Shown: in pieces, positions 56,873 to 64,000 of the stretch
How positions within the stretch are numbered: position 1 is the first letter of the stretch
Layout: each line of letters starts with the position of its first letter
Assembly: GCF_029338355.1 (NCBI RefSeq)
Contig: NZ_CP119802.1
Location: 2,542,001 to 2,606,000 of the forward strand
Reading direction: 5' to 3'
DNA length: 64,000 nt
From: Halosegnis marinus
GTDB taxonomy: Archaea > Halobacteriota > Halobacteria > Halobacteriales > Haloarculaceae
The notes under the pieces: generated by a model
The model's input: only the letters and a program-made list of their open reading frames with translations
Databases searched by the model: none
What the model was told of the DNA's origin: nothing
Made by a program: the position numbers and the translations under genes

Positions 56873-57274
56873 ATGCGAATCGAACTCCGGGTGTGCCAGC
56901 ACTGTTACGACGGCGAGCACGGCAATCCGCAGAAGACCGAGATAACGAAGGACATGGTTCGGTGTGCGAAGCAGGTCCGCGAGTACAAGGACCTCATCGG
57001 CCTCGAATCGCTGTACATCGACATGGTCGAGGAGGGCGACCCCGGCGGCGCGGAAGCGCTGCCGGCCATCGTCGCGCGCATCGAGAACGACCAGGTCGCG
57101 CTCACGGACACCCAGCTCGTCATGGAGGACGACAACGGGAACATGCTCGTGTACCCGGAGCCGCGCGACATCCTCGAGGTGCTGACGCGCAACATCGACC
57201 AGATACAACAGCAGACCCGACAGGACGTGACGGTCGAACTCTCCACCGAGGGCGCGGAGCTGCTGTCGGCCTAG
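56873..57274 (+). CDS. Conserved haloarchaeal protein, unknown function
   Basis: A 133-residue acidic protein. The N-terminus has VCQHCYDGEHG with a CxxC knuckle at 8-11 and a third Cys at about 31 in VRCAKQVREY, so one metal site is possible. The rest alternates helix and strand, ending VTVELSTEGAELLSA. It stands alone between the small membrane genes and the formate dehydrogenase operon, convergent with that operon. No function can be assigned. Confidence 0.75.
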   Translation: MRIELRVCQHCYDGEHGNPQKTEITKDMVRCAKQVREYKDLIGLESLYIDMVEEGDPGGAEALPAIVARIENDQVALTDTQLVMEDDNGNMLVYPEPRDILEVLTRNIDQIQQQTRQDVTVELSTEGAELLSA

Positions 57275-57308
57275 AGGCGAGGAAAACCGAAGGAGGAAGA
57301 ACCGGAAG

Positions 57309-58312
57309 TCAGTCGTCGCTCGGCTCGCCGCCGTCCGCGGCGACGGTTTCGCCCTCCTCCTGGCGCTGTGCGAGCTCCTTCTCCCAGCGGACGCGGAGCA
57401 CGTTCCCGTACATCGACAGCACGATGCCGACGAACAGCACGAAGACGCCGATGTTGATGCCGATGGTCATCAGCAGCGAGGTCGGTCCCCCGCCGATGAC
57501 GAGTTCGCGCGGCACCGGATACCCTCGTCGAAGATACTCCCGACGAGGAACGACACGATGCCGATGACGGTCAACACCCCCATCACGGTCGTGACCCAGT
57601 GCCACGACGGCGACAGTTCGAGCTTCTCGATGCCCCACTCGCCGTTGCCGGAGTGGTCCTCCGGAATCATGCTCCGGGGGATGAACGCCTTCGGCTCCAG
57701 CGGGTAGAACGCGGGGTGGAAGCCGTGCTCGAAGATGTGGAACATTATCCCCATCACCATGATGACGCCGAGCAGGCCGTGGAAGACGACGAACGCCATC
57801 GCGGCCGTCCGGGTGGCGTACACCTCCATCACGCCGGTCTTCGACCAGATGAGCAGCCCCGAGATGGACAGGAGCGTCAGCTCGACGCTGAAGATGTAGA
57901 CGACGCCCTTCCCGATGTAGGTGAGCAGCGGGACCTCGTCGGCCTTCCCGCCCGCGAACTGCAGGGCGTTCGGGTGGCGCTCGTCGGCGCGCCCCAGCAT
58001 GAACTTCACGTCCTGTATCATCGCCTCGATGTCCTCCCGGGTGAGGAGTATCTCCCGGAAGTTCGAGCGGCCGGTCGGGGTGATGACCATGAGCACGATC
58101 CAGAAGACGATGAGCGCGATGAGGCCCGCGCCGGCCACGCGGTGGACGGCGGCGACGCCCGCGGTGCCGCCCATCAGCTCGGCGAGCCACCACAGCTCGT
58201 CGTTGAACATGATGCCGTAGCCGGTGAAGAAGAGGATGAACACGTCCAGCCCCAGCAGGGCGTGGAACGTCGTCGTCATCCGGGTGAACTTCCCGTGGTC
58301 GAGGCTCGTCAT
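57309..58312 (-). pseudogene. Formate dehydrogenase cytochrome b subunit, frameshifted
   Basis: The FdnI-like membrane subunit that takes electrons from the Fe-S subunit through haem b to quinone. From ATG 58312 the frame shows four membrane helices with His residues in [27 protein letters not shown] and FHIFEHGFHP. At about 57520-57524 the frame changes: one frame ends FLVGSIFDEG then runs into unrelated residues, while the next frame continues YPVPRELVIGGGPTSLLMTIG, a further helix and an acidic tail. One missing base in a GGG run repairs it to about 334 residues. The ATG overlaps the preceding gene by 4 nt. Confidence 0.82.
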
Positions 58313-58698
58313 CGGTCCTCACCTCCCTCGACCTCGCCGCCGTCGGCGACCACGTCGCCGGCGTCGGCCTGCTCGCCGGGCTGGCGCATCCGCGCCGCGA
58401 TGCGGCGGAACGCCGACCAGTGGAGGAACACCATGAACAGGATGAACACGCCCATCAGGACGTCGGCCGCGTGAATGAGCGCGATGAGGAAGTCCAGTTC
58501 GGCGATGGTGTTGCCCTCGACCCAGTCCGTGCCGACGCCGCCGCCCGCGACGGTCGGGCCGACCCGGAACAGCGTCTCGTAGAACGGCCCGAAGCCGCTC
58601 GCCCACCAGATGCTCCCCAGCGCCGCGGCGACGCCGACGACGGCGGAGACGAGGATGGACAGGCCGCCGTAGCTACGGGTCTCGGGGAGTTCGCTCAC
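58309..58698 (-). CDS. Small membrane subunit in the formate dehydrogenase operon
   Basis: A 129-residue protein with two membrane helices (about 13-33 and 72-95). The second contains IHAADVLMGVFILFMVFLHW with two His residues on one face, a possible haem ligand pair. The C-terminus is acidic. It starts and ends in 4-nt overlaps with its neighbours, so it should be made with the complex. It resembles no named Fdh subunit; it may be an anchor or a second haem protein. Confidence 0.75.
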   Translation of the reverse strand: MSELPETRSYGGLSILVSAVVGVAAALGSIWWASGFGPFYETLFRVGPTVAGGGVGTDWVEGNTIAELDFLIALIHAADVLMGVFILFMVFLHWSAFRRIAARMRQPGEQADAGDVVADGGEVEGGEDR

Positions 58699-59366
58699 GA
58701 GAACTCACCGGCCTCCTCGCCGAAGATTATCTCCATCGCCTGGTCGTTGAAGAACGGCGCGGAGCCGCGCTTCTCCATCTCGTCGGCGATCTCGGCCGCG
58801 TCGCCGACGAGGATAGCGTCGGTCGCGCACTCCTCGGCGCAGGCCGGCCCCTTGCCGACGTGCTGGCGCTCCTCGCACATCGTACACTTGTCCATCGTGC
58901 CGCCGGTGCCGAACACCTGTGCCGAGCCGTCGTTCGAGTCGGGGAACTGCGGCGCCCCGAACGGACACGCGGAGAGGCAGTACTGACAGCCGATACAGAG
59001 GTCGTCGCGGACCTCGACGAAGCCGTTCTCCTTCTTGATCAGCGAGTCCACCGGACACACCGAGACGCACGGCGCGTTCTCGCAGTGGTAACACTGCATC
59101 GGAATGGACGTCTCGCCCGGGCTCGCACCCTCCGCGAGCGCCTGTGAGCTCCGGTGGTTGAACCCCTCGTCCGCCTCCTGTCCCTCCAGCATCGTCGAGA
59201 TGCTGATGCGCTGTTCCTGCGGGCCGACGTCCCACGTCCGCTTGCACGCCACGACACAGCCGCCGCAGTCGATGCACGCTTCCACGTCGGGGAAGATACG
59301 CGCTCCCTCCCCGACGTTCATGACGCCCTGGCCCAGGACCTCTCTGTTTTGTTCGTTTGTAGACAT
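58695..59366 (-). CDS. Formate dehydrogenase iron-sulfur subunit
   Basis: A 223-residue ferredoxin-type subunit like FdnH/FdhB. Four cluster motifs are visible: CIDCGGCVVAC, CYHCENAPCVSVCP, CIGCQYCLSACPFG and CTMC with CAEEC. They form a wire from the molybdenum subunit to the cytochrome. No signal peptide or C-terminal anchor helix is present, so the protein probably rides out with the Tat-exported catalytic subunit. Its ATG overlaps the fdhA stop by one base. Confidence 0.92.
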   Translation of the reverse strand: MSTNEQNREVLGQGVMNVGEGARIFPDVEACIDCGGCVVACKRTWDVGPQEQRISISTMLEGQEADEGFNHRSSQALAEGASPGETSIPMQCYHCENAPCVSVCPVDSLIKKENGFVEVRDDLCIGCQYCLSACPFGAPQFPDSNDGSAQVFGTGGTMDKCTMCEERQHVGKGPACAEECATDAILVGDAAEIADEMEKRGSAPFFNDQAMEIIFGEEAGEFS

Positions 59367-62300
59367 TATTGCACCGTCTCGGAGTCACGGACATCGAAGT
59401 CCTTCTGGAGACCGATGCCGTCCCGGTCCTGCGGGAAGTCGATGACCTCCATGTTCAGTTCCTCCATGCGCTGTTCCGTGGCCGGCTCCAGCCGGACCAT
59501 CGATACCTTCGTCTCCTGCATCTGCGTCTCCACGTCGTAGCCGCGCGACGTGATGGCGTTCACGGAGTCGCCGATGGCGTACGGGACCGTCCCCTCGGGG
59601 TAGCGGTCCTCCAGGCTCTGTCCCTTGAAGACGCCGCCCCAGTGGAAGGGGAGGAACGTCTCGCTGTCGTTCGGGCGGTCCGTCACCCGCGCCTTCACGA
59701 GGATGGACCCGCGGTCCGTCGACGACACGATGAGCATGTCGCCGCCGTCCACGTCGAGGTCCTCGGCCGTCGCCGGCGTTATCTCCGCGTACATGTGCGG
59801 CTGGAGGTCGGCGGTCATCTCGTTCGACCGCGTCTCCGAGCCGCCGCCCTGGTGTTCCACCTGCCGGCCGGTGGTCATGATGGTGTTGAGCCCCTGGTCG
59901 GCCACCTTCTGCATCGCGTCCTCCTGGGTGACCGAGTTGTTCTGGTCGAACCGGTAGAAGTTCTTCTGCTGGCCGTTCGCGGGCCACTGCTCCACCAGGT
60001 CCGGCCGCGGGCTCTCGATGGGTTCGCGGTGGACGGGGACGGTGTCGATGAAGTTCCACACCGTCGCCCGCGCCCGGCCGCGCCCCGTCGGCGCGTCGGG
60101 CTGTTTGTAGTCGTACTGTTCCCACCACTCCAGCGACTCCTCGACGTTCATGCCGGGCTGGACCACGTGCTCCTCCATCCCCCGGCTGACGAGTTCCTGC
60201 GCCAGCGTGTACACGGACTCGTTCGGGTCGAGCGCGTACTGGTAGGGGAGCGAGAGCGCGTCCGGGTTGGTGAGGTCCTCGGGGAGGACCGTCTTCCAGC
60301 CGGGGTACTCCGGGACGCCGTTGATGACGCCCTGGTAGTCGCTCTCCCAGTTCTCCGGGACGAGTTCGTCGCGCAGGAGGTTCGTCCCCTCCTCGACGCC
60401 CTTCGCGTCGACGGTGTCCTGCATCGGGTACGGCTTGTCCGTGTTCATGCCGTCCCAGTCGTCCGGGGTCGGGGCCTGCGTGCCCCAGCGTGCGCGGAAG
60501 TCCTGCCCGCCGTTGCGCGGGTCCATGTCGTCGTTCCAGATGATGGGCGTGCCGGGATGGCCCTCGCCCCAGCAGGGCCACGGCAGCCCCCAGAACTCGT
60601 CGGACACCGGCAAGCCCTGTTCCTCGGCCTTCAGCGTCTCCGTCGAGAACGCGTAGTCGTAGTCGAGGTGCTGTTGGAGCCGTTCGGGGCTCTGGATGTA
60701 GCCGATGGTCCGCAGGCCGATGTTTATCTCGCGGATGACCTCCTCGTAGGTGGACTTCCCGTTGTGGATGTTCGGGCCGGAGCCCCAGTCGAAGTGGGCG
60801 CCGAGGCCGTCCCAGTAGTCATACTCGCCGAGTTTCGCGGCGAGTTCCTGGATGATCCGCAGGTCGGGCCGGGAGTTGTGCGACGGCGGCCGCACCGGCT
60901 CCGACCACTGGATGGAGCGGTGCGAGTTCGTCAGCGAGCGGTAGTGCTCGTACTGGCTCGACGCCGGCAGGATGATGACGCCGTCGTCGCGGTCCGGCAG
61001 CACGGACGCGACGGACGGGAACACGTCCACGACGACCAGCAGGTCGAGGTTCTGCATCGCCTGCTGCATCTTCCCCATCTCGGAGATGGAGTTCGCGGAG
61101 TGGCCCCAGAAGAACGCCGCACGGAGGTCGTTCTCCTGGTACAGCGGCGTCTCGTTGAGCCGCTCGGACTGCGGGAGCGCTCCCTCGAACCAGCGGGCGA
61201 CCGTGAGCCCGTTCTGGAACATGAGCGAGCGGTCCATCGCGCTCGCGTCGGCGGCCCCGCCCTGTTCCGTCCAGACGTCCTGGGGCATCGTCGAGAAGCG
61301 GTCGTACAGCGTGTCGAAGTCCGTCGACCCGCTCGTGAACGGGCTCTGGTTCCACACGTCGGCCCAGTACTCCCACGAGCCGCGCGAGCCGACGCCGTAG
61401 TAGCCGGGCAGGATGTGGCTCGCGACCGCGAGGTCGGTCGCCCCCTGGACGTTGGCGTGGCCGCGCATGACCTGCAGGCCGCCGCCCGAGCGCGCCGCGG
61501 AGCCGCTACCGAGCGACAGCGCCGCGTACGAGCGGATGTTCTGCGTCCCGTTGTTGTGCTGGGTGCCGCCCATCGCCCACTCGATCTGGACGCTGGGCTT
61601 GGCCTCGATTATCATGTCCCCGAGCTGCTGGATCTCCTCGACGCTCATCCAGGTGATGTCGGCGACGGTATCGAGGTCGTAGCGGTCCAGCTCGGAGGCG
61701 AGGTCCTCCCACGCGAAGACGCGCTCGTCGAGCATCTCGCGGTCGAGCTCGTCCTGCTCGCGCAGGTAGCGGATGAGCCCCATCATGAGGGCCACGTCCG
61801 TCCCCGGGCGCATGCGGAAGAACTCGTCCGCGTGGGCCGCGGTCTTGGTGAACCGCGGGTCCACGCAGGCGATCTTCCCGCCGCGCTTCTGGCCCTCCAG
61901 GATGTGCTGCATCGCGATGGGGTGGGCTTCGGCCGGGTTCTGCCCGATGATGACGTTGAGGTCGAAGTTCCGGTAGTCGTTGATGGTGTTCGTCATCGCG
62001 CCGTAACCCCACGTGTTGGCGAGGCCGGCGACCGTCGTGGAGTGGCAGATACGCGCCTGGTGGTCCACGTTGTTGGTGCCGAACATCGAGGCGAACTTCC
62101 GGAACGCGTACGCCTCCTCGTTGGAGTGGTGGGCGCTGCCGAGCCACATCGTCGCGTCGGGGCCGTCCTCCTCGACGATGGTGTTCAGCTCCGAGGCGAT
62201 GTGGTCGTACGCCTCGTTCCACGAGATCTTCCGCCACTCCCCGTCCACCTTCTGGAGCGGGTGCTTCAGCCGGCGTTCGGAGTGTTCGGACGAGAAGATG

Positions 62301-62590
62301 CCCGCCCCCTTCGAGCAGAGCGAGCCGTTGTTTATCGGGTTCTCGTGCCACGGCTCCTGGCCGACGAACGCGTTGCCCTCGCGTTCGCCGCGGAAGCCGC
62401 AGCCGACCGCACAGTAGTTACAGACTGTCTTCGTCAGTTCCCCTTCGTCGTCGGTGCCGTCGGTCTCGCCGTCGCTCTGGGCCAGCGCGTGGCCTGCCGT
62501 CCCCCCGCCGAGGGCCAGCCCGCCCGCCAGTGCGCTCGCCTTCATGAACGAACGTCGGTCGAGATCGAGTGAGACCGGTTCCGCGCTCAT
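59366..62590 (-). CDS. Formate dehydrogenase catalytic subunit, Tat-exported, Cys type
   Basis: A 1074-residue molybdenum or tungsten bis-MGD oxidoreductase close to E. coli FdnG. The Tat signal DRRSFMKASALAGG (11-24) is followed by the [4Fe-4S] set Cys57, Cys60, Cys64 and Cys92. The metal ligand position is Cys182 in ARICHSTTV, where FdnG has selenocysteine. The segments GYGAMTNTINDY, DPRFTKTA and GGTQHNNGTQNIRS also match FdnG. It should oxidise formate outside the membrane. The start ATG 62590 overlaps the stop of a five-codon frame. Confidence 0.92.
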   Translation of the reverse strand: MSAEPVSLDLDRRSFMKASALAGGLALGGGTAGHALAQSDGETDGTDDEGELTKTVCNYCAVGCGFRGEREGNAFVGQEPWHENPINNGSLCSKGAGIFSSEHSERRLKHPLQKVDGEWRKISWNEAYDHIASELNTIVEEDGPDATMWLGSAHHSNEEAYAFRKFASMFGTNNVDHQARICHSTTVAGLANTWGYGAMTNTINDYRNFDLNVIIGQNPAEAHPIAMQHILEGQKRGGKIACVDPRFTKTAAHADEFFRMRPGTDVALMMGLIRYLREQDELDREMLDERVFAWEDLASELDRYDLDTVADITWMSVEEIQQLGDMIIEAKPSVQIEWAMGGTQHNNGTQNIRSYAALSLGSGSAARSGGGLQVMRGHANVQGATDLAVASHILPGYYGVGSRGSWEYWADVWNQSPFTSGSTDFDTLYDRFSTMPQDVWTEQGGAADASAMDRSLMFQNGLTVARWFEGALPQSERLNETPLYQENDLRAAFFWGHSANSISEMGKMQQAMQNLDLLVVVDVFPSVASVLPDRDDGVIILPASSQYEHYRSLTNSHRSIQWSEPVRPPSHNSRPDLRIIQELAAKLGEYDYWDGLGAHFDWGSGPNIHNGKSTYEEVIREINIGLRTIGYIQSPERLQQHLDYDYAFSTETLKAEEQGLPVSDEFWGLPWPCWGEGHPGTPIIWNDDMDPRNGGQDFRARWGTQAPTPDDWDGMNTDKPYPMQDTVDAKGVEEGTNLLRDELVPENWESDYQGVINGVPEYPGWKTVLPEDLTNPDALSLPYQYALDPNESVYTLAQELVSRGMEEHVVQPGMNVEESLEWWEQYDYKQPDAPTGRGRARATVWNFIDTVPVHREPIESPRPDLVEQWPANGQQKNFYRFDQNNSVTQEDAMQKVADQGLNTIMTTGRQVEHQGGGSETRSNEMTADLQPHMYAEITPATAEDLDVDGGDMLIVSSTDRGSILVKARVTDRPNDSETFLPFHWGGVFKGQSLEDRYPEGTVPYAIGDSVNAITSRGYDVETQMQETKVSMVRLEPATEQRMEELNMEVIDFPQDRDGIGLQKDFDVRDSETVQ

Positions 62591-62601
62591 TGTGTTTCCA
62601 T
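62587..62601 (-). other. Four-residue leader frame (METQ) overlapping the fdh start
   Basis: On the minus strand ATG at 62601 opens a frame whose TGA overlaps the formate dehydrogenase ATG (ATGA). It could be chance; listed because similar coupled micro-frames occur at 42199 and 44882. Confidence 0.2.
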
Positions 62602-62641
62602 GGTTTCCCTGACCGTTCTTCGTAGACGGTTCTAGTTTTGG

Positions 62642-62658
62642 TGTGATACCAACTCACA
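62642..62658. promoter_or_regulatory. Palindrome TGTGA-N7-TCACA in the fdh promoter region
   Basis: Perfect 5-bp arms with a 7-nt spacer, 52-68 nt upstream of the fdh ATG. A partly overlapping repeat CAACT/AGTTG lies at 62650-62666. Its form resembles half-sites of CRP/FNR-fold regulators, but the factor is unknown. Confidence 0.45.
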
Positions 62659-62705
62659 AAAAGTTGTACCCCATCTTAAAGAATAATTACATAAATACAT
62701 TTAAC
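62650..62705. promoter_or_regulatory. AT-rich island holding the fdh promoter
   Basis: A stretch rich in A and T (for example ATAATTACATAAATACATTTAA at 62683-62704) in an otherwise GC-rich region. Several TATA-like boxes on the minus strand could serve the fdh operon, with a leader of about 50-75 nt. Confidence 0.5.
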
Positions 62706-62748
62706 CAGACCTGTTCGGGAGGACGCGATGGGCCGGTGGCCCCGAAAC

Positions 62749-62755
62749 CGATATG
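62749..62755 (+). promoter_or_regulatory. TATA element CGATATG for the HdrA-like gene
   Basis: Centred 27 nt upstream of ATG 62779, implying a leaderless transcript divergent from fdh. Confidence 0.55.
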
Positions 62756-62778
62756 GGGGGCCCGCCGATTCGACGGGT

Positions 62779-64000
62779 ATGAACATCGGCGCGTTTGCGT
62801 GCTCCTGTGGCGGGTCGTGCGACATCGACCTCGAACGGGCGCGGGACGGGGTGCGCGACGTGGACGTCGTCGCCAGTTCGAGCCTCCTGTGTCAGGACGG
62901 CCTCGACGCGATGGAACACGTCATCGACCAGTACGACCTCGACCAGGTGGTCGCGACCGCCACGGACGACGGCTGTAAGAGCCGTATCCGCGAGCGGGCG
63001 ACCGAGGCGGGGCTCCACCCGGACGCCACCGCGTTCGTCGACCACCGGGAGGGGAGCGCGTGGGTCCACGACCGCGACGAGGCGACGGACAAGACGGCCC
63101 GTGTCATCAACGCGACGGCCGCGGGCGTCCGTGAGGCGAGCGGGGAGCGGCGCGTCTCCCGGGAGGCCGGCGACCGCGTCGCCGTCGTCGGCGACCCCGA
63201 GACGGCCGCCGCGCTCGCGGACACCGCCGACGTGACGCTCGTCGCGAACGGCCGGGAGTTCGCCGGCGCGGACCTCGACCTCGACGACGTGACGCTCCGC
63301 CGGGGCGGCGTCGCCTCCGTCGAGGGCGAGTACGGCGAGTTCACGCTCTCGCTCCGGTCGCGCGTCACCGCCGACTGCATCTCGTGTATGGAGTGCGTCG
63401 AGCGCGGCCCCGACGACATGGTCACCGCCCGCCCGGTGGACATCCACCCCGAGGCCCCGCGCGGCGAATGGACCGACTGCTGTCCCACCGACGCCATCGA
63501 CATGGACGGCGAGACGACGACGCTCGACGCCGACCAGGTCGTGTGGCCCGGCGCGGACCGTCGCGAACGCGGCGGCCGGATTGGCTTCTACACCACCTCG
63601 GACGCCGGAACCGTCGCGGCCGTCGAGTCGCTGCTCGGCGGCGTCGAGAAGCCGCGGTTCATCGACCTGGAGATGGACGTGTGCGCGTCGGGCGCGTCGA
63701 GCCAGCAGGGGTGTACGGAGTGTTCGGACGCGTGCCCGCACGGCGCGGTCGCGCGGCCGGCCGTGGACGAGGTGGAGATAGACCCCGTGGCGTGTCAGAA
63801 CTGCGGCGCGTGTACGAGCGCCTGCCCGACCGGCGCGGTGTCGCTCCGCGAGCCCTCGAACCGACGGCTCGCCCGCGAGGTCGAGGCGCTCGTGGACGAG
63901 GACACCGACGACGGCGGTTCGTGGTTCGGCCGCGGCGACGACGGCATCGAGACCCCCGTGGTCGCCTTCACCTGCTCCGAGCGGGCGCGCGACCGCCTCC
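62779..64000 (+). CDS. HdrA/MvhD-like iron-sulfur protein, partial (3' end outside window)
   Basis: About 407 residues are visible. The start NIGAFACSCGGSCD and SSSLLCQDG match the N-terminal domain of heterodisulfide reductase HdrA, as does FVDHREGSAWVHDRDEATDKTARVI. The FAD-binding glycine motif of HdrA is missing: the region reads RVAVVGDPETAAAL and runs quickly into the Fe-S part. Clusters follow in CISCMECVE, CTECSDACPHGAV and CQNCGACTSACPTGAV. The last visible stretch, VVAFTCSERARDRL, begins like the MvhD hydrogenase iron-sulfur domain. It diverges from the formate dehydrogenase operon and may accept its electrons or those of another donor. Confidence 0.8.
   Translation, partial: MNIGAFACSCGGSCDIDLERARDGVRDVDVVASSSLLCQDGLDAMEHVIDQYDLDQVVATATDDGCKSRIRERATEAGLHPDATAFVDHREGSAWVHDRDEATDKTARVINATAAGVREASGERRVSREAGDRVAVVGDPETAAALADTADVTLVANGREFAGADLDLDDVTLRRGGVASVEGEYGEFTLSLRSRVTADCISCMECVERGPDDMVTARPVDIHPEAPRGEWTDCCPTDAIDMDGETTTLDADQVVWPGADRRERGGRIGFYTTSDAGTVAAVESLLGGVEKPRFIDLEMDVCASGASSQQGCTECSDACPHGAVARPAVDEVEIDPVACQNCGACTSACPTGAVSLREPSNRRLAREVEALVDEDTDDGGSWFGRGDDGIETPVVAFTCSERARDRL

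Follow-up and report, generated by a model that had tools for sequence, protein, structure and literature searches.

Introduction

FdhD is essential for formate dehydrogenase (FDH) in Escherichia coli. NapF, a cytoplasmic multi-cluster protein found beside an exported molybdoenzyme, has neither HdrA nor MvhD parts, and the cytoplasmic formate hydrogenlyase contains HycF (subunit 6) as one of its small subunits. HdrA is equipped with a flavin loop, a second FAD/NAD half, an inserted ferredoxin with two clusters and a stretch with a CCMxxxK segment, which we take to provide a cluster ligand and a flavin contact. This segment includes K409 according to the available part of PMC12054007, which also sets out the HdrA types including the type Ia HdrA-MvhD fusions. 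For molybdoenzymes, the accessible sections of a maturation review describe that the cytoplasmic four-cluster protein NapF is required for the in vitro Fe-S reconstitution of NapA of Rhodobacter sphaeroides, that FdhE is an accessory protein of exported FDH, and that some organisms possess an FDH but no fdhD; the supply of Fe-S clusters and sulfurated cofactor to a bis-PGD FDH without FdhD is a gap left by these sections (PMC10609526).

Here, we describe a flavin-less HdrA-MvhD-like Fe-S protein, which we name HdrL, encoded next to an FDH gene cluster of the haloarchaeon Halosegnis marinus (order Halobacteriales). In the mostly open literature we found no passage naming haloarchaeal HdrL or its function and no mutant or biochemical data for any family member. 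An HdrL-type protein is not discussed in the available part of a study of tungsten FDH maturation in Methylorubrum (PMC13197769), and the accessible passages on Halodesulfurarchaeum (PMC5437934) and on natronoarchaea (PMC6176080) describe membrane FDH operons with no HdrA-like partner.

Results and Discussion

Extent of the Gene and Quality of the Assembly

The window, i.e., the whole analyzed stretch of 64,000 nucleotides, corresponds to C1:2542001-2606000 of a 2.65-Mb contig. The HdrL reading frame (MNIGAF..., alternative in-frame ATG at 62728) has no stop before the window edge, and extending it in the source contig, a check proposed in a preliminary description of this DNA, revealed the stop codon 893 bases further on (window-equivalent 64893). 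The full protein thus consists of 704 amino acids. The features in the window are summarized in Table 1.

Table 1. Features of the HdrL gene and the adjacent fdh cluster in window coordinates.
Feature	Position	Strand	Basis
HdrL, flavin-less HdrA-MvhD-like Fe-S protein, residues 1-407 of 704	62779..64000	+	ORF, Pfam, profile alignment
HdrA N-terminal domain (residues 1-120), C8, C10, C38	62779..63138	+	phmmer to 5odc/9sfi, hhalign, Cys conservation
Vestigial first Rossmann unit (residues 130-199), GGGIAG flavin loop deleted	63166..63375	+	Profile alignment, motif count
Reduced inserted ferredoxin (residues 200-240), one set of four Cys, C200/C203/C206/C235	63376..63498	+	Cys conservation, hhalign
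Short linker (residues 255-301) replacing the second FAD/NAD half of HdrA	63541..63681	+	hhalign
HdrA C-terminal-type 2x[4Fe-4S] ferredoxin, C302/312/315/319/339/342/345/349	63682..63840	+	Pfam, phmmer, Cys conservation
Start of MvhD/FlpD domain (residues 394-509; C399/432/457/461)	63958..64000	+	PF02662, Cys conservation, Foldseek 5odc_D
Divergent intergenic region fdhA/HdrL, 188 bp	62591..62778	.	ORF list; layout kept in 40/60 loci
FdhA, Tat-signal molybdopterin FDH catalytic subunit, 1074 aa, ARICH motif	59366..62590	-	ORF, Pfam/NCBIfam
FdhB, 223-aa Fe-S subunit; closest NCBIfam model FDH3 beta (score below cut-off)	58695..59366	-	Pfam/NCBIfam
129-aa protein, hydrophobic by eye, cluster-conserved, without family match	58309..58698	-	Pfam/NCBIfam, locus comparison
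Cytochrome b561-type FDH gamma-like subunit	57308..58312	-	ORF, Pfam/NCBIfam
133-aa CxxC protein	56873..57274	+	In 40/60 loci

The ends of the contig turned out to be an uncollapsed circular overlap (L010:6689-19000 versus L009:1-12315). The two copies differ in about ten single bases, and fdhA, HdrL and torD are each broken in one or the other. Accordingly, a match at C1:11464, frameshifted by a 1-bp deletion, was rejected as a paralogue of HdrL, as it is the same locus seen twice. The cytochrome b gene is interrupted by an indel in the window, whereas its copy in the overlap (L010:5996-7000) is intact and encodes 334 aa. Such single-base indels call for care with claims of gene loss near contig ends, and they might suggest that HdrL itself is an assembly artefact or a decaying pseudogene. 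The chance of this is negligible in view of its conservation: the frame is open over 704 amino acids here, 113 of the 392 genomes searched from the order encode HdrL (E<=1e-20), and in most of these the frames are open and the identity is 60-70%, which is more than expected by chance.

HdrL Follows the Domain Order of HdrA but Has Lost the Flavin Site

A comparison of a profile of 55 HdrL family members with a profile of 20 methanogen-type HdrA proteins revealed that both are collinear over 497 columns (hhalign, probability 99.9%, E 7e-37). The likeness to HdrA, including type Ia HdrA-MvhD fusions and HdrA2, extends over the N-terminal domain, a Rossmann remnant, both ferredoxins and the MvhD domain. 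Nevertheless, HdrL stays far below the cut-offs of the curated NCBIfam models for HdrA, with 69 bits against 1400 for NF041778 and 95.9 bits against 1100 for HdrA2.

Four statements of the preliminary description concern this architecture, and three of them hold for the complete protein. The N-terminal HdrA domain is confirmed by hhalign and by a phmmer match of residues 3-138 to residues 6-150 of HdrA in PDB 5odc (domain i-E 4e-5); C8, C10 and C38 are present in 54 of 55 proteins of the main haloarchaeal group and C14 in 48 of 55. The MvhD-like segment suspected at the window edge is a FlpD domain (PF02662) scoring 45.6 bits, above the Pfam gathering cut-off of 22.3. Its four cysteines, presumably the ligands of the MvhD [2Fe-2S] site, are found in 55/55 main haloarchaeal proteins, but in 0/7 distant haloarchaeal and 0/3 bacterial ones. 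The third statement, loss of the FAD-binding motif, is borne out by the closer alignment, in which VVGD----PETAAALADT of HdrL is paired with VIGGGIAGITAAINLANN of HdrA and the GGGIAG loop falls in the four-residue gap. Furthermore, most of HdrA residues 330-566 have no clear counterpart in HdrL, although the alignment within the linker is unreliable, and the stretch with the CCMxxxK segment is absent. A GGG[IVP]AG-like motif occupies the flavin-loop place in 20/20 HdrA proteins, whereas even the relaxed pattern GxGxx[GAS] occurs there in only 2 of 65 HdrL family proteins, both bacterial. Taken together, the flavin site is lost and a Rossmann stub remains; an intact flavin domain is ruled out by profile alignment and motif count. 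The fourth statement, that the Fe-S clusters are intact, applies to part of the protein. All eight cysteines of the C-terminal-type ferredoxin are kept in the 55 main, seven distant and three bacterial homologues, and residues 309-364 match the C-terminal ferredoxin of HdrA in 9sfi (phmmer), so that both clusters are retained there, but the inserted ferredoxin keeps one of the two clusters of HdrA.

Compared to HdrA, HdrL is extended by a second ferredoxin (residues 570-625) and a CxxC...CxxC domain (residues 652-694). In total, 19 cysteines are universal in all 55 main, seven distant and three bacterial proteins, namely those at positions 302, 312, 315, 319, 339, 342, 345, 349, 576, 582, 586, 606, 609, 612, 616, 652, 655, 691 and 694. 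Counting the Cys sets, about 5-7 [4Fe-4S] clusters, one [2Fe-2S] cluster and one Zn/Fe site would be predicted for HdrL. The C-terminal ferredoxin and CxxC domain match HycF (7z0s_F; phmmer E 2e-4, Foldseek E 2e-6); in the loci inspected, no hydrogenase genes were apparent next to HdrL. NapF (TIGR00402) matches the ferredoxin region with E 1.6e-11, which is below the cut-off and reflects generic ferredoxin similarity only. FdhE has CxxC pairs as HdrL does (available part of PMC10609526), but no sequence relation was found between the two, and the FdhE model TIGR01562 is not among the best 25 of 80 NCBIfam matches of HdrL. An AlphaFold model based on 16 sequences (representative L136) reached a mean pLDDT of 63.7. 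It is poor at residues 118-390 and therefore says nothing on the vestigial Rossmann unit; a Foldseek search with it returned HdrA, HycF and MvhD (5odc_D), sensible matches that come from the good domains only. HdrL has no export signal and no strong transmembrane segment, and an RRx[FLIMV] motif is located within the first 45 residues in 1 of 64 HdrL proteins.

HdrL Accompanies an Exported Formate Dehydrogenase

The conserved link to fdh that had been postulated from the window is clearly visible in the order. A close FdhA is encoded in 106 of 392 genomes (E<=1e-200), and 105 of these also carry HdrL; one genome has FdhA only and eight have HdrL only (Fisher p 1e-84 over the 392 genomes, with relatedness ignored). 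FdhA contains the ARICH motif, which we take to be the active-site motif. Its Tat motif RRx[FLIMV] is present at all 51 loci with a readable N-terminus, three further loci being excluded from the count as their N-terminus was not aligned. The Tat signal indicates that the neighboring FDH, which has Fe-S and cytochrome b subunits of its own, is exported.

These data bear on the idea, also put forward in the preliminary description, that HdrL is a redox connector, i.e., a cytoplasmic flavin-free subunit that links FDH or its cytochrome b to a ferredoxin or another acceptor by electron transfer. The retained HdrA-type clusters, the four MvhD cysteines in 55/55 proteins, the resemblance of the second ferredoxin to HycF and the co-occurrence with FdhA would all suit such a role. 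On the other hand, FdhA is a Tat substrate and HdrL is not, so that the mature proteins should be separated by the membrane; Fe-S and cytochrome b subunits are already part of the FDH; the MvhD cysteines are lost in all ten distant haloarchaeal and bacterial homologues; and the constant partners of HdrL are maturation genes, TorD and in one group Mrp/ApbC and MobA, with the bacterial homologues holding the same place in FDH3 clusters (see below). We therefore consider the connector role unlikely.

For a comparison of gene neighborhoods, 60 loci from 57 genomes were inspected, picked for diversity and including all distant forms. In 40 of them HdrL is divergent from fdhA (at least 55% identity) and torD lies directly downstream of HdrL, with fdhA being followed by fdhB, the gene of the 129-aa protein and cytochrome b. 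Nine further loci contain another fdhA (43-48%) and torD, L066 has another fdhA only and six have a distant molybdoenzyme. No fdhA was seen at L055, L069, L077 and L084, of which L055 and L084 are near contig ends. Altogether, torD adjoins HdrL in 53 of 60 loci once the seven distant forms are counted and a further TorD query is applied: directly downstream in the 40 loci and L055, and directly upstream in the seven distant haloarchaeal forms and five alternative-enzyme loci. L077 has a partial TorD match only. MobA is encoded within 19 of the 60 loci. Among the organisms with the cluster are Haloarcula species (L132, L134, L141) and Haladaptatus (L101).

The divergent promoter layout of the 40 loci, together with the many clusters and the vestigial flavin domain, could also be expected of a sensor of redox state or oxygen that acts via TorD to gate the synthesis or export of FDH. 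Such a function is very improbable, since there is no DNA-binding or output domain among the Pfam and NCBIfam matches listed for HdrL and the protein is conserved across very different operon layouts.

Among the alternative-enzyme loci, five (L072, L073, L074, L078, L080) share the gene order Tat-type PhsA/ArrA-like enzyme, Fe-S subunit, TorD and HdrL. L077 belongs with them to this other HdrL lineage, and the enzyme is absent from the stretch examined there, which means that five of six loci encode the PhsA/ArrA-like Tat protein and not an FDH. A Mrp/ApbC Fe-S carrier follows within 250 bp after HdrL in 6/6 and MobA comes next in 4/6; the family names were read on L078 and the other loci matched to it. 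These loci argue that HdrL is tied to exported molybdoenzymes with TorD and not to formate chemistry. Conversely, genome G010 encodes TorD and an FDH of 46% identity whose anchor is NrfD-like by eye, but HdrL was detected neither near this FDH nor in the genome at E<=1e-20. Hence, not every haloarchaeal FDH needs HdrL, and G010 lends itself to comparison.

The 133-aa CxxC protein contains the motif stretch VCQHCYDGEHG and has no Pfam or NCBIfam match. It is a perfect phylogenetic partner of the main HdrL group: all 101 genomes encoding it at an identity of at least 64% also encode HdrL, and the 12 HdrL genomes without it at this level are those with distant or alternative-enzyme HdrL. Including paralogues of lower identity (about 50-58%) in additional genomes, 160 of 392 have a match at E<=1e-10. 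At loci L046, L066 and L068-L071 its gene is located directly upstream of HdrL and torD is not adjacent.

FdhD and FdhE Are Not Detected in the Order

Many haloarchaea carry a molybdopterin FDH, although FdhD was not detected in any of 146 genomes of the order (E<=1e-10). The same is true for FdhE at E<=1e-3, and the controls, including E. coli, were positive in both searches. That FdhD was hidden by the strict threshold was rejected, as a lenient Pfam search at E<=1 in 17 genomes yielded one chance-level match. This raises the question whether HdrL replaces FdhD in haloarchaea by supplying electrons for sulfuration or reduction of Mo/W-bisPGD instead of delivering Fe-S clusters. The presence of MobA within 19 of the 60 loci and the absence of fdhD from FDH-bearing organisms elsewhere (available part of PMC10609526) would be in line with this, but no sulfurtransferase-like family is among the Pfam and NCBIfam matches listed for HdrL, and bacterial clusters can carry FdhD and an HdrL homologue together. 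Hence, we regard this explanation as improbable.

Homologues in Bacterial FDH3 Clusters

A tblastn search with HdrL against plasmids matched 84 records, of which eight were opened; two of these are without annotation. Matches include those from Methylobacterium (E 3e-26, 87% of the query) and Bradyrhizobium (E 4e-23, 92%). The record of the haloarchaeon Haladaptatus salinisoli contains the same cluster, with HdrL annotated as “hydrogenase iron-sulfur subunit” beside a “molecular chaperone TorD family protein”. All five annotated bacterial plasmid loci, from Bradyrhizobium, Microvirga, Diaphorobacter, Sulfitobacter and Sinorhizobium, represent FDH clusters that also encode TorD and DUF3306; fdh3B is on the examined stretch in four of them, and several contain ApbC, MobA, FdhD or Mo-cofactor genes.

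The bacterial protein, annotated as “4Fe-4S binding protein” of FDH3 clusters, is homologous to HdrL over up to 92% of its length with 24-27% identity, and the 19 universal cysteines as well as the torD and fdh neighbors are common to both. Unlike the main haloarchaeal HdrL, the bacterial forms lack the MvhD cysteines and some also the cysteines of the inserted ferredoxin, and they are accompanied by DUF3305/3306 and often by FdhD. The location of FdhD beside some of these homologues implies that HdrL is not simply an FdhD replacement.

In Shewanella, SO_4506 is presumably an HdrL-type protein, judged by its name and position. In the accessible tables it is an “Iron-sulfur cluster-binding protein” next to SO_4507, “Formate dehydrogenase chaperone FdhT” (PMC5826389; also PMC2535785), and SO_4509 FdhA is part of the same SO_4506-SO_4509 listing (PMC5826389). 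A “fer4” gene is drawn in a 2015 map of NarJ-family operons, including fdhGHI operons, in the available part of PMC4464133.

A search of genome contigs beyond haloarchaea returned mostly generic ferredoxin or true HdrA matches, and none of its results entered the counts; the match at L147 is located next to FDH3-type genes. Nine shorter betaproteobacterial relatives (L153, L154, L156, L158, L162, L166, L191, L195, L205), about 363 aa in the cleanest cases and without the HdrA N-terminal domain, sit about 5 kb downstream of another molybdoenzyme.

A Possible Role of HdrL in Enzyme Maturation

The TorD, Mrp/ApbC and MobA partners, the homologues in FDH3 clusters, the export on the FdhA side only and the lack of detectable FdhD and FdhE in the order lead us to lean towards HdrL being a cytoplasmic Fe-S maturation protein that loads cofactors into the Tat-exported FDH, in analogy to the function of NapF. 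With the same reserve, we assume that its ancestor was an electron-transfer protein of the HdrA-MvhD type whose flavin site was lost. Overall, the data suggest that maturation fits HdrL better than respiration and leave room for electron transfer. A location next to TorD is no proof of a function in maturation, and several observations speak against it: the six loci in which torD is not adjacent, the FDH and TorD of G010 without HdrL, FdhD beside some bacterial homologues, and the MvhD cysteines kept throughout the main group, which also suit a redox relay.

If HdrL is a maturation protein, its HdrA-type and C-terminal ferredoxins and the CxxC/CxxC domain could bind apo-FdhA/FdhB together with TorD, and the MvhD-type site could accept electrons from a cellular donor. 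HdrL might then act as a donor of [4Fe-4S] clusters or install them reductively, and possibly also reduce Mo/W-bisPGD or assist in its loading, all ahead of the release of the Tat signal by TorD. The step itself may thus be the donation of clusters, their reductive assembly or the reduction of the cofactor. More tentatively, it is conceivable that a bifurcating HdrA-MvhD scaffold stripped of its flavin became a dedicated cofactor loader for exported molybdo- and tungsto-enzymes, and that haloarchaeal HdrL, TorD and the 133-aa protein form an FDH maturation system free of FdhD and FdhE.

HdrL is the most consistent companion of the haloarchaeal FDH in an order in which FdhD and FdhE are undetectable, and a function as maturase would provide a testable answer to the question of FDH maturation without FdhD. 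It would also explain a family that has no other annotation than “4Fe-4S binding protein” or “hydrogenase iron-sulfur subunit”, and it would represent the reuse of an energy-converting scaffold as a biogenesis factor.

Further Genes Near the Cluster

Downstream of torD, a DUF7405-family protein with a weak Dyp-type peroxidase match is encoded at L010:14798-16111, and an ORF that by eye resembles aldehyde ferredoxin oxidoreductase (AOR) is located nearby. At the Haladaptatus locus L101, an AOR gene and a gene for a protein with a Dyp-type peroxidase domain are likewise found in the vicinity.
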